This document shows, piece by piece, positions 7,484-36,409 of a stretch of DNA of 54,102 nucleotides. This DNA is from an uncultured Acholeplasmataceae bacterium (lineage in GTDB: Bacteria > Bacillota_I > Bacilli_A > Acholeplasmatales > Acholeplasmataceae): contig CAKMKH010000001.1 of NCBI GenBank assembly GCA_927441705.1, forward strand, positions 1 through 54,102. The letters run 5' to 3'. The notes under the pieces were generated by a model. It saw only the letters and a program-made list of their open reading frames with translations. It was not told where the DNA came from and did no database searches. The translations under genes and the position numbers were made by a program. Position 1 is the stretch's first letter, and every line of letters begins with the position of its first letter.

Positions 7484-7677
7484 CGCCCTTAGATATAATC
7501 TAAGGACGAATAAATTCGCGGTACCACCTTAGTTCTAGGTAATCCTAGCACTCAAATATCGTTAAGGCCGACTTACCTTTTGCTCCCAAATAGCTTCATA
7601 AGATTTCTTTCTTCGTTTACACCAACCACGAAGTCTCTTTAAAAGGAAATTTCTTATTACTCATTTTGTTCATTGCA
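7484..7677 (-). promoter_or_regulatory. T-box riboswitch leader for alaS (probable GCU specifier)
   Basis: Read on the minus strand, this leader holds the T-box core AAGGTGGTACCGCG at 7517-7530, followed by an intrinsic terminator at 7484-7508 (arms CCTTAG and CTAAGG, then TTTTTT). The same CCTTAG arm can instead pair with CTAAGG just before the T-box core, giving the antiterminator. A stem III hairpin (CTAGG/CCTAG) precedes it. In the Stem I region a plausible specifier is GCT (Ala) at 7592-7594 in the context GAAGCTA. By family knowledge, uncharged tRNA-Ala stabilises the antiterminator and turns on alaS and downstream genes. The codon choice is my reading of the context. Confidence 0.93.
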
Positions 7678-7683
7678 TAATTA

Positions 7684-15172: not shown

Positions 15173-15330
15173 AATCGCCAAATTACTTCGGCGATAAAAG
15201 AACGTCATAAAATGACAAATATTCTTCTTCCATCCAGACTTTACTGTCGGTACTTGAATCTCACAAGTTCAACCCTAAGGTTCGCGGACTTTACCGCCGG
15301 TCCCGAATTACACGGTGCCCCGAAGTATTT
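15173..15330 (-). promoter_or_regulatory. FMN riboswitch (RFN element) with attenuator
   Basis: On the minus strand the aptamer (about 15221-15327) shows the RFN landmarks CTTCGGGGC, GACCGGCGGTAAAGTCCGCG, ACCGACAGTAAAGTC and TGGATGGAAGAAG. Downstream, TCGCCG and TGGCGA (15175-15194) form a hairpin followed by TTTTAT, just before the AGGAGG of ribU. The 5' end TACTTCGG (15320-15327) can pair with CCGAAGTA of the hairpin (15183-15190), giving an antiterminator that excludes both the basal CTTC/GAAG stem and the terminator. FMN binding should therefore reduce ribU expression. Confidence 0.96.
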
Positions 15331-15342
15331 AATTACGGTATA

Positions 15343-26975: not shown

Positions 26976-29825
26976 TTAACTTTTAAAACCTTTTCGCTTT
27001 TGTGCTCCCCATTTCCCTGTTTCTTTAAGTGCACTAAAACTGCTAAATACTCTATGCATACTTATTAATTGTCTGTAGCCAAAGTTTTCTATAATTGCAT
27101 AAATCAACATGATTAATGTTTCTCTTTTATTCATCATTAATAGTTCCTTTTCAGACATAAATATTGATGATAAAGATATGACAACACCAAATAAGATTGA
27201 TGAAGCAAAAATACCTAATATAATGACTGGGCTCAATAATCCTAAAATTAAAGCAATTGTTAACATAATATAACCTTGAGCCTCAAAAAATGGACCTAAA
27301 AATTCAAAAATAAAGAAATATGGATAGCCAATTAATCCTATTTGCTTGTACTTTGGATTAAATGATAGTTTGCGATGATATGAAAGAATATCTATAAGCC
27401 CTCTTTGCCAACGATTCCGTTGTTTTAGAAGTGTTTTAAGGTCACTCGGTAATTCTGTGTAGCAATAAGCATTATAGACATAGGATACTCGAAATGGGTC
27501 TTTCTTTTCTAAAGCTTGTCTTGTAAGCCGAACCACAAGCTCCATATCTTCGCCAACTGTATCTTTTTTCAATTTACTGCTACTTGTTAGGTATCCTCCA
27601 GTTTCAATCAAAGCCTCTTTTTGAAATAGTCCAAAAGCTCCAGAAATTATCATTAAACTTCTAAGCTCACTCCACCCAATTCTACCACTTGTAAAAGCTC
27701 TCAGGTATTCAATAGACTGAAATCTACAAACCATTTCTTTAGGGATTCCTCTTTTTTCGACTTTACCGCGATCAAATGTAAAGCCATTTGCAGGATAAAT
27801 ATTCCCACCCATAGCAACATATGGTTTAGTATCATCAAGCATTGTTGATGCTAATTTAAGTAAAGCATCTCCTTCTAAGATGCTATCTGCATCTATACCG
27901 CATACATAAGGTTGTTTACTTACGTTTATTCCAACATTTAAAGCATCAGCTTTACCACCATTTTGTTTGTCAACAACATATAAATTAGGAATATCTTTTG
28001 TTTGATAAACACCTCTAATTTTTTTAGTTTCAAAACTATTTACGTGTGACGCGTGTTTTCTTTCTAAATGAAAATGGTCTATCATTTTTTTAAGAGTATC
28101 ATCTTTAGAACCATCATTAACTACAATTACCTCATAAATAGGGTATTGTAAGTTTAAAAGACTTGTCACACTTTCAATGATACTAATTTCTTCGTTATAT
28201 GCGGGAGCAATAATCGATATCCCCGGTAATAATCTTTCAGAAAACAAGAGTGTCTTTTTCCTTGTTCTAGATAAATTCACTTGTTTTTTTGATGCGATTA
28301 ATGCAAGTATAAACAATATCATATAAATCATATTAATAATTAAAAAGTAAAATATTAAATATATATTTACATCAATCAAAAAACCTTTGATGATATCAAC
28401 TAATTCTAAATCAAATATTTTGACATTTAATCTAGCAAGATAAATTATTGGAAAAAGCAACAATGAAAAACTAATCCATTTAATCATCCAGTAAATTTTA
28501 GATTTCTCGATAGGTGGTTTTTCTTTCTTATCAATTACAGGCGTTAATTTTTGTAATCCCATTTGTTTTAATATATTAGGTTCTAGATAAATTCTAAACT
28601 CTTTTGTCATCTCATCATCAATGCTCATGATTAATTTAATGATATCAAGCATATATTTTTCGATTGATTTATTTTTATTATTGTTTAAAAAATCAATAAT
28701 AGGTTCTATAATATGTTTTTTTAGCAATATATCTAGAATTTCTTTTAGTAAGCTTTTTTGATCATCAAACAAATTTAGGATAATATAATCGATACGGTCC
28801 GAGAATACGATAGAGAGATTATCTTTTTGATCTTCATTAAGCTCTGAAAAAACTCTCAATAAGTGATCTAAAAATGATCTATCGTTTAATACTATTTTAG
28901 ATAGTGTCTTAATTCTTATCTCATCTAGGTCATCTGTCTTAAACCCATCTATAATCCTATTGATACATTTTATGCTCGGCTGATAAAATAAAGATGAAAT
29001 CGCATATGACTTGATTTTTATGTCATCATGATCAAGATATTTTGGAACACTTAGCAGTTCTGGTGTATGTTTTAGTAAATTTTTTAAAATATTATCTTTT
29101 AAATATCCTCTACTTGAAGACTCATATGGAAGTTCATTATTAAGCCACTCAAGTTTTTCTTCCATATAATCCACTAGAAATGAATCAGCATGGAATGCCC
29201 CAATTTTTATTAAACCTAGGACTATTTCATACCTAACATCATCTTTATATCTTGGAAATATGTCATAAATACGTTTATAATTATTTCCTAATAAAATACA
29301 TAAGCGATCATGATATTGATCTGTAGACTCAACTAAAGACTCAATAATAGTCTTTAAATAATTATCTTTTAGTCCATATCGCATATTAGATACAATTCTT
29401 AGTCGAATTGCTTCATTTTTTTCTTTCTTAAATCTTTGGAATAATGATTCATATGCTTCTTCTGTGCGAAGTTTAGAGATATAATAGACTGCAATTTTTC
29501 TTTTATATGCACTTCTTGAGTTCAATAGTCTTAACTGCTTTTTTATAAATCTAGAATCTTTAAAATCTTCTATAATTTGCCTTCTAATTGAAGGCTCTAA
29601 ATGGATTTGTTCATCTATATCAATTAGTGCATCAAAAAAGAACCTTTTTGATACAGGCAATTTTAAATCTTCATTATCAATATACTTTTTAAAGAGATAA
29701 TCTCTAGAATTCTTAACTTTCGATGATTTTTTTTGATGTCTGCGTTTCTGTGTAAGAATTAATAAAATGAACAATAATATAAAAAATCCGAAAAAAGTAG
29801 AAACACCATAGATTATATCCATCAT
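26976..29825 (-). CDS. HEAT-repeat membrane protein fused to a processive GT2 glycosyltransferase
   Basis: 949 residues. In order: an N-terminal membrane segment (4-24), a long helical-repeat region (about 80-430) that reads as HEAT-like helix pairs, two membrane segments (447-465, 485-511), a GT2 domain (about 535-810), and C-terminal membrane helices (832-885, 903-915). The GT2 motifs are complete: APAYNEE, VNDGSKDDT, DxD as DAD at 645-647, GED at 758-760 and QxxRW at 802-806. The last is typical of cellulose, hyaluronan and poly-GlcNAc synthases, so it probably polymerises and exports a polysaccharide; the sugar is unknown. There is no PilZ domain. Its ATG overlaps the stop of the upstream signalling gene. 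Confidence 0.88.
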   Translation of the reverse strand: MMDIIYGVSTFFGFFILLFILLILTQKRRHQKKSSKVKNSRDYLFKKYIDNEDLKLPVSKRFFFDALIDIDEQIHLEPSIRRQIIEDFKDSRFIKKQLRLLNSRSAYKRKIAVYYISKLRTEEAYESLFQRFKKEKNEAIRLRIVSNMRYGLKDNYLKTIIESLVESTDQYHDRLCILLGNNYKRIYDIFPRYKDDVRYEIVLGLIKIGAFHADSFLVDYMEEKLEWLNNELPYESSSRGYLKDNILKNLLKHTPELLSVPKYLDHDDIKIKSYAISSLFYQPSIKCINRIIDGFKTDDLDEIRIKTLSKIVLNDRSFLDHLLRVFSELNEDQKDNLSIVFSDRIDYIILNLFDDQKSLLKEILDILLKKHIIEPIIDFLNNNKNKSIEKYMLDIIKLIMSIDDEMTKEFRIYLEPNILKQMGLQKLTPVIDKKEKPPIEKSKIYWMIKWISFSLLLFPIIYLARLNVKIFDLELVDIIKGFLIDVNIYLIFYFLIINMIYMILFILALIASKKQVNLSRTRKKTLLFSERLLPGISIIAPAYNEEISIIESVTSLLNLQYPIYEVIVVNDGSKDDTLKKMIDHFHLERKHASHVNSFETKKIRGVYQTKDIPNLYVVDKQNGGKADALNVGINVSKQPYVCGIDADSILEGDALLKLASTMLDDTKPYVAMGGNIYPANGFTFDRGKVEKRGIPKEMVCRFQSIEYLRAFTSGRIGWSELRSLMIISGAFGLFQKEALIETGGYLTSSSKLKKDTVGEDMELVVRLTRQALEKKDPFRVSYVYNAYCYTELPSDLKTLLKQRNRWQRGLIDILSYHRKLSFNPKYKQIGLIGYPYFFIFEFLGPFFEAQGYIMLTIALILGLLSPVIILGIFASSILFGVVISLSSIFMSEKELLMMNKRETLIMLIYAIIENFGYRQLISMHRVFSSFSALKETGKWGAQKRKGFKS

Positions 29826-31810
29826 AATGTGATCACTTTCTTATCTCTTATTCTTTTAATATGTCCAATGAGTTCTTCAGGAATAATTGGTTTTTGCAAG
29901 ATTAAGTCAACATCTAATAGATTACATCTTGTAATAACATCTAAATTTTTATGATGACTAACCATAATGAAAGGAATATTTTTAAAGGTTTGTGACTGAT
30001 TTATTTTTTGTTTGAGCTGAAACCCATCTAATTTACTTAAATTAATTTCAGAAATAATCATATCGATATTATGATTTTCTAATTGTTCATAAGCATCGTA
30101 TATTCCGGTTGCTATAATCACTTCGTAATGAATGCGGTTAAATATCTTAACCATAAGATTTTGATACGTTTCATCTTCATCAACCAAAAGTATATTACCT
30201 TCAATATATGCTTTTTCATCAGATTTCTGATCTAGAACTTGGCCTTTACCTTTATGTTTAGCTCTTTCTAATCTTTTTTGAGCCAGTTCCACTAATTGAT
30301 TAACTCTTTCATCCAATTGATAGCGGTCATTTAATTCATCAACAGTGACAATACTCATAGAAGTTGTAATAGGTTCGATAAAAAGATCCGATTTTTTGAC
30401 CTCATTACTTAATTTAAGAGCAAATTCCGTCAAATCCTTTTTTTCAGCTTCGTGTTTATAAATATAAAATCCTGGACCGTTTTGTTTAAATAAGATGGTC
30501 TCATCGTGTTTAAGGTTATTCATTAAATGCACTAAGTTTCTTAGTGTTTCATCACCTTTTTGGGCACCGTATTTTTTATTAATTTCTAAAAGATTATCTA
30601 TATGAACTAAAATGAGTCCTCTTGAATGATTTTCGTCTAAAGATCTATCTATATTATTGGTTAGGTGACCGATCATAAATCTTTGATTGTATAAACCAGT
30701 AATTGGACAACGAAGAAGTTTATCAGTAGTTTCACTAATTTTTGAAGATAACTCTAGCACCTTATCTTGCAAATGTTTTTTTTCTAAGCTTAAGTCATCA
30801 ATTTTTGCTTGAAGTTCAATCGACTTTGTTTTATAGACTGCTGGTAATCTTATATGATATGTCTTTTGATATTTTTTAACTATTGGCTCTAATAAAGTTA
30901 ATGCAGTGACACCTTTTTTCTGATAAATAAGATCAAAAAACCCATTCCATAGTTTATATCCAGAAAGTATTGTTGACTCTATTTCAATATGTGGATATAA
31001 ATCTAAATGAATATCAGAATCTTTAAATATATCTAAAATATCATATCGATGATATTTTGTCTCTAGCCTTTTTAGCATATGATTACAGATTGTTTCGTAA
31101 TTATAAGAAATATTCTTTTTACTTTTATGCTCGACCACTTGATTTGTATTATAAAAATCATATGATAAAACTTTTGAAAGAATATCATGTATTAAAATTC
31201 TATCAATAGAATTTCCTAGTCTTGGATAGATTTTAACTATATTATATTTTTTTAATTTTTTTATGGCTTGTCTTATGAATTCTACACTAGGTAATACCAT
31301 TTCATGAAATTGGTTAATTGAAGATATTAAATTTTCTTCATTTTGATGATTCACAAAACCTTGTGAAAAAAGATGTGCTGAAAATAAGACTCCTTCATCT
31401 ACAAATATTGTCATAAATCCTTCTGGAAAAGGTAAAAATGGAATTGGTATAAATTCTACAGACTTTCCATTATCAAGCTTTAATACATATTCTAAAGATG
31501 AAATGGTTATAATTCTATTTTGCAACATACTTTCTAAGTAAGGTAATCCAGTTTCGTTAACAATAACACTGCCTGTAAAACCTGCTTTATTAATTTCTTC
31601 TAGTGATGTTAAATTTAAATAATCATTAGATTGCAAAACAATATATGATAGCTTTTGAATTTCAATATGTTCTTTTAAAGCAGTTAAAAGATAAGGTGTA
31701 TGATGTTTAGCACCTGGATCAATTAAAATTGAAATGTCTTCTTCAATAATGAGGTAAGCATATCTTTTAACGGACTCTTCTAATAGAATTGGTATCAATT
31801 TATTATCCAT
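29822..31810 (-). CDS. Degenerate flavodiiron-type MBL / GGDEF / receiver protein
   Basis: 662 residues from the ATG at 31810, which has a weak AAGAAG site; an ATG at 31840 has none. Residues about 1-210 resemble the metallo-beta-lactamase domain of flavodiiron proteins (LIDPG at 29-33, PIPFLPFPEGF at 122-132, LFSAHLF at 142-148), but the metal-ligand loop reads QSNDYLN (60-66) and no HxExD is left. A helical linker and coiled coil (about 335-365) lead to a diguanylate-cyclase fold (PITGLYNQRF, INKKYGAQKGDETL) whose GGDEF is NGPGF (444-448). A C-terminal receiver domain (538-656) keeps the acidic pocket (544-546) and Lys640 but has Glu588 for the phosphoacceptor Asp. Probably a non-enzymatic regulator of the coupled GT2 synthase. 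Confidence 0.82.
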   Translation of the reverse strand: MDNKLIPILLEESVKRYAYLIIEEDISILIDPGAKHHTPYLLTALKEHIEIQKLSYIVLQSNDYLNLTSLEEINKAGFTGSVIVNETGLPYLESMLQNRIITISSLEYVLKLDNGKSVEFIPIPFLPFPEGFMTIFVDEGVLFSAHLFSQGFVNHQNEENLISSINQFHEMVLPSVEFIRQAIKKLKKYNIVKIYPRLGNSIDRILIHDILSKVLSYDFYNTNQVVEHKSKKNISYNYETICNHMLKRLETKYHRYDILDIFKDSDIHLDLYPHIEIESTILSGYKLWNGFFDLIYQKKGVTALTLLEPIVKKYQKTYHIRLPAVYKTKSIELQAKIDDLSLEKKHLQDKVLELSSKISETTDKLLRCPITGLYNQRFMIGHLTNNIDRSLDENHSRGLILVHIDNLLEINKKYGAQKGDETLRNLVHLMNNLKHDETILFKQNGPGFYIYKHEAEKKDLTEFALKLSNEVKKSDLFIEPITTSMSIVTVDELNDRYQLDERVNQLVELAQKRLERAKHKGKGQVLDQKSDEKAYIEGNILLVDEDETYQNLMVKIFNRIHYEVIIATGIYDAYEQLENHNIDMIISEINLSKLDGFQLKQKINQSQTFKNIPFIMVSHHKNLDVITRCNLLDVDLILQKPIIPEELIGHIKRIRDKKVITL

Positions 31811-31866
31811 AAACACACTTCTTTCTATAAAAATTAACATTTTATTTTTATTTAACTATTTTCTTT

Positions 31867-36194: not shown

Positions 36195-36403
36195 GTCCCT
36201 AGACAATAGTCTAAGGACGAATATATCGCGGTACCACCTTAGTTCTAGAATATTAATTCTAGCACTTAAATCATTTTTTAACGGTTATGAACCGGATTAG
36301 TTTTTCTCTAATCTGCTCCAAGGGAGTAATTATTAATCATTCACAGCTTTCACCATCCTGTGTCGCTAAAGGTGATTAAAATCATGTCCTTTTCATTGCA
36401 TTC
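36195..36403 (-). promoter_or_regulatory. T-box riboswitch leader for thrS (probable ACU specifier)
   Basis: On the minus strand: the T-box core AAGGTGGTACCGCG at 36227-36240, an intrinsic terminator at 36195-36218 (GTCCTTAGAC and GTCTAGGGAC) followed by TTTTTT, a stem III hairpin (CTAGAATTAATATTCTAG), and a Stem I region. A plausible Thr specifier ACT lies at 36325-36327, about ten bases before a GGAGC closing segment at a position equivalent to the GCT of the alaS leader. Uncharged tRNA-Thr should favour read-through into thrS. Confidence 0.93.
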
Positions 36404-36409
36404 ACATAT

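Follow-up and report, generated by a model that had tools for sequence, protein, structure and literature searches.

On the minus strand of the window (the whole 54,102-nucleotide stretch of DNA analysed here, from an uncultured Acholeplasmataceae bacterium), we found two overlapping genes, one for a multidomain protein that we refer to as the regulator and one for a GT2-type membrane synthase. The initial annotation had given the open reading frame of the regulator, its strand, its length of 662 residues, the ATGA by which it overlaps the GT2 gene, and several named residues; all of these were as described. The features of the locus, with their evidence in brackets, were as follows:

26976..29825, minus strand: solenoid-GT2 membrane synthase, 949 aa (ORF list, Pfam, motif alignment)
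28536..29708, minus strand: N-terminal alpha-solenoid of the synthase, HEAT/ARM-like, about residues 40-430 (AF2 model, Foldseek, Pfam)
29822..29825, minus strand: ATGA overlap of the regulator stop and the synthase start (ORF list)
29822..31810, minus strand: ODP-GGDEF-receiver regulator, 662 aa, three active sites lost (ORF list, Pfam, homologue alignment)
29858..30193, minus strand: pseudo-receiver domain, residues 540-651 (Pfam PF00072, 1.5e-17)
30047..30049, minus strand: Glu588 at the phosphoacceptor position (homologue alignment)
30242..30706, minus strand: degenerate GGDEF domain, residues 369-523 (Pfam PF00990, 3.1e-17; same coordinates in the search of its own genome)
30467..30481, minus strand: NGPGF, residues 444-448, replacing GGDEF (homologue alignment)
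30731..31219, minus strand: helical linker, residues 198-360 (invariant alignment columns; predicted secondary structure, low confidence)
31220..31765, minus strand: ODP domain, residues 16-197, metallo-beta-lactamase fold (Pfam PF19583, 1.3e-21; Foldseek top match 6qrq)
31616..31630, minus strand: SNDYL, residues 61-65, replacing the H-x-D-x-D ligand motif (alignment with metal-complete relatives and ODP 6qrq)

An alternative in-frame ATG of the regulator was located upstream at 31840 and would add 10 residues; similarity to homologues began at 31810. A promoter scan gave no excess over shuffled sequences. All three Pfam domains of the regulator (ODP, GGDEF and Response_reg) scored above their curated cut-offs, and the linker between the first two contained many positions that were invariant among homologues (L287, W288, F292, Y296 and G300). 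No DNA-binding domain was found in the regulator. The structure model of the full-length protein was poor (pLDDT 53) and too uncertain for pocket analysis, and therefore the GGDEF and receiver folds were assigned from profile matches.

The NDGS, DAD, GED and QRNRW motifs of the synthase were intact and invariant among 12 homologues, in agreement with the DxD, [TG]ED and QxxRW pattern of processive GT2 enzymes. Its scores were below the curated cut-offs of both PgaC/IcaA (113.8 of 422.3 bits) and the XrtG-associated family TIGR03111 (104.4 of 363.95 bits). The AF2 model of its N-terminal part of about 400 residues was all-helical (pLDDT 77). This solenoid had weak Foldseek matches to HEAT/ARM proteins, and Pfam HEAT_2 was detected in 3 of the 12 homologues (best 4e-7).

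Sites lost and kept in the three domains

Whole-genome profile searches provided about 60 distinct homologues of the regulator, fragments included, from several orders and mostly from draft assemblies. They were far more productive than a contig scan with the single protein, which returned three close relatives only. Apparent frame breaks were observed in the regulator of L065 (G048) and in the synthase of L057 (G043), possibly reflecting assembly error or decay. The regulator was under purifying selection in all domains: in the pairs that could be scored, dN/dS was between 0.02 and 0.25 in every domain and as a rule lowest in the receiver.

The GGDEF domain was detected by Pfam in all 13 homologues checked, and, among the homologues collected, the GGDEF motif was absent from every one that held that segment. 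The alignment confirmed the initially annotated replacement by NGPGF. We mapped PleD positions onto the regulator by an equal-length sequence match (offset 76). In PleD, we take D327 and E370 to be metal ligands, E371 to be catalytic, and Asn335 and Asp344 to contact the guanine. The first three corresponded to H403, P446 and G447 of the regulator, so that the metal and catalytic positions were lost. The guanine-contact positions were kept as N411 and D420; N411 was present in 56 of 58 homologues and D420 in 48 of 58, with N in nine others. The absence of an RxxD I-site, also noted initially, was true of the protein (H435 and T438 at the two positions) and of nearly the whole family, since L114 and L117, two near relatives, were the only sequences with RxxD in register. 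PleD-type receiver-GGDEF proteins likewise carry both domain types in one protein. However, the regulator had them in reversed order, with GGDEF preceding the receiver, and it lacked the catalytic motif and the acceptor Asp.

The receiver retained its pocket residues, namely the acidic pair D544/E545, S618 and K640, and Glu588 indeed took the place of the phosphoacceptor Asp. Across 56 homologues, this position was Glu in 49, Asp in five, Ala in one and Pro in one, the last being a broken fragment. Asp occurred only in the distant homologues L049, L111, L118, L119 and L122, and all of these except L111 were missing the ODP domain. The Asp is missing from 4% of receivers, with Glu as the replacement in 26% of these cases (PMC12548384). 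Aspartate-less receivers such as CmrT of Clostridioides difficile and AtvR resemble that of the regulator in having Glu at the phosphoacceptor position and much of the pocket kept (PMC12548384). CmrT is an OmpR-family response regulator, whereas the receiver studied here was C-terminal in its protein.

The N-terminal domain had been described as a flavodiiron-type metallo-beta-lactamase fold without metal ligands. The metallo-beta-lactamase fold was correct, but ODP, a stand-alone diiron protein that binds oxygen, was closer to it than flavodiiron enzymes were. With the window protein, Foldseek returned ODP structures first (6qrq, E 2.4e-10) and flavodiiron proteins close behind, and 6qrq was also the structure that a metal-complete relative matched best by sequence. 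We rejected a flavodiiron enzyme, given the closer match to the ODP sensor and the lack of a flavodoxin domain among the domains detected in the protein. The ODPs of Thermotoga maritima and Treponema denticola (6qrq, 6qnm), which function in chemotaxis, are stand-alone sensors with a diiron site, and their ligand set (H-x-D-x-D, H, D, H) was common to the metal-complete relatives of the regulator. In contrast, the ODP domain of the window protein was fused to other domains and had S61, D63, L65, P127, H146 and L198 where those relatives had H, D, D, H, D and H. Thus, whereas the initial annotation had seen no metal ligands, one position (D63) was kept and five of the six were lost.

A complete six-ligand set was present only in L046, L047, L048, L101, L104, L107 and L115 of the homologue alignment, all from the order of G340 and G097, which was not the order of the window. 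Six of these seven sequences entered the tree, where a branch with an SH-aLRT of 85 separated them from the others. Since stand-alone ODP sensors have the same ligands, the diiron site was probably ancestral and would have been lost one to three times, the number depending on the root. All 12 sequences of the window's subclade had H37, D63 and H146, a combination present in no other homologue; the position of H146 was Asp in the metal-complete relatives. These residues might form a rebuilt mononuclear metal or ligand site through which the synthase would be gated by a different chemical signal from that of the presumably oxygen-sensing relatives. On the alignment, we regard such a site as distinctly improbable, and the invariance may be a matter of mere shared descent.

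Across the family, the three losses that the initial annotation had noted in one protein were not a single event there. The GGDEF and receiver losses were old and conserved. The three losses differed in age: that of GGDEF was family-wide, the change from Asp to Glu nearly so, and the loss of ODP ligands clade-specific.

Inheritance of the two genes

The synthase gene directly followed the regulator gene in all 17 neighbourhoods examined, with an overlap of 4 nt in 11 of the 17 pairs and of 1 nt in two; the other neighbours differed between lineages. Of the 392 genomes in the phylum sample, 15 held a full-length regulator and the same 15 a solenoid synthase (counts uncorrected for relatedness). 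Five further GT2 matches in this sample were shorter. One of them, in G331 (L144:5270-6943), was a synthase without model positions 1-385, that is, without most of the solenoid, and no regulator gene was adjacent upstream. It was possible that this one draft genome represented a natural joint loss of the solenoid and the regulator.

Moreover, a 5094-bp segment was 94.6% identical between L055:5715-10807 (G058, family f5) and G407:C7:279107-284200 (family f1). It comprised the two genes alone, flanked on either side by about 100-150 bp, and the other long matches between G058 and G407 over that stretch had 67-72% identity. In this genome pair, the regulator and the synthase had probably moved horizontally as a unit, judging by the sequence comparison, although the near-identity may instead be an assembly error. 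The proposed tie to a polysaccharide synthase was thus upheld by conserved adjacency, co-occurrence and one probable joint transfer. A plasmid search for the same architecture returned no record covering 80% of the query, and the two plasmid matches examined were other GGDEF proteins with intact motifs.

Possible roles of the regulator

We consider it rather probable that the regulator serves the solenoid-GT2 synthase as a regulatory subunit that has no catalytic role and acts independently of phosphorylation. A subunit was preferred over an enzyme or a decayed gene because the regulator was kept by selection and inherited together with the synthase. It would presumably bind the cytosolic alpha-solenoid of the synthase, the structures having been predicted as single chains only. 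Glutamate at the acceptor position of a receiver does not always mimic phosphorylation; here, Glu588 might lock the domain in a single, active-like state. The GGDEF fold could mediate dimerisation or read a nucleotide. The ODP domain may formerly have been an oxygen or iron sensor input, and relatives from another order still have the full set of ligands; in the lineage of the window, it would be purely structural or read another ligand. The regulator may control polymer synthesis allosterically, as the initial annotation had proposed.

The loss of three active sites and the broken frames of a few homologues (L065 and L080) could also point to a decaying gene. This was highly improbable given the dN/dS values, the conservation across orders and the intact frames of most homologues. 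We rejected a decayed allele on dN/dS and conservation, and an isolated decayed copy, which the initial annotation had named as the outcome that would speak against it, was excluded for the close homologues by dN/dS, conserved losses and intact frames. Its suggestion of selection for a non-catalytic role agreed with the purifying selection and the conserved site losses. It was unlikely that the protein is a purely structural assembly factor of the synthase that neither binds a ligand nor switches. All three input sites were lost in the lineage of the window, and docking would fall to the receiver, in general the best conserved domain. However, the ODP fold and the invariant H37/D63/H146 of the subclade exceeded the obvious needs of a scaffold.

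Two further explanations concerned the ligand of the GGDEF fold. The genome of the window had 21 GGDEF and 6 EAL matches, several of them with intact motifs, so that active modules existed beside the inactive regulator. No PilZ match was found in this genome despite the intact GGDEF and EAL motifs, and hence some other c-di-GMP receptor would be needed. A receptor of the PelD/BcsE/YdaK kind, where c-di-GMP on the degenerate GGDEF domain activates the synthase, would fill this place, and the setting of a degenerate GGDEF domain adjoining a GT synthase was the same (PMC7112168, PMC8461298). However, PelD and BcsE use an RxxD I-site, whereas the regulator has H435 and T438. A receptor acting through the I-site was unsupported in a family where RxxD was in register in L114 and L117 only, and we judge the c-di-GMP explanation to be distinctly improbable. 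A version of the subunit model, which we hold to be similarly improbable, has the GGDEF fold read GTP or another purine nucleotide through the kept base pocket and relay it to the synthase. In its favour, N411 and D420 were kept while the catalytic and metal positions were gone. On the other hand, both metal positions were lost (D327 to H403 and E370 to P446), so triphosphate binding should weaken, and N411 and D420 may be structural.

Several known systems were compared with the subunit that we favour. PelD (of Pseudomonas and Bacillus cereus) and BcsE are, like the regulator, non-catalytic proteins with a degenerate GGDEF domain beside a polysaccharide synthase in a c-di-GMP-signalling genome, and they bind c-di-GMP via the RxxD I-site (PMC7112168, PMC8461298). 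They differ in lacking the ODP and receiver domains, while the regulator lacked the I-site and had a partner with an alpha-solenoid. Because the I-site was searched for and was absent, the regulator was not placed with PelD and BcsE. YdaK of Bacillus likewise has a degenerate GGDEF domain and a link to a polysaccharide synthase, and it is described as a potential c-di-GMP receptor (PMC9800504). The likeness to I-site receptors such as YdaK that had been drawn initially failed at the I-site.

Signalling domains without catalytic activity were already known to control polysaccharide synthases, and the characterised examples that we cite sense c-di-GMP via the I-site. The present cassette was distinct in lacking the catalytic motif, the I-site and the phosphoacceptor, in its solenoid-fused synthase and in its occurrence in relatives of wall-less bacteria; the named close relatives were Acholeplasmataceae and included Peloplasma aerotolerans, an aerotolerant anaerobe without a cell wall (PMC11122141). 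In the open-licence literature that we searched, we found no description of the ODP-GGDEF-receiver architecture. The family offers a natural series, in which the sensor site is complete, lost or absent with its domain, for studying the change from sensor to subunit and the signal that takes the place of c-di-GMP.

Additionally, the solenoid-free synthase relatives L145, L146 and L147 were located in clusters that may be XrtG-associated, according to their neighbours and a TIGR03111 match. Elsewhere on the minus strand of the window, Rfam identified a T-box leader (7499-7682), an FMN riboswitch (15218-15331) and a second T-box leader (36210-36405).
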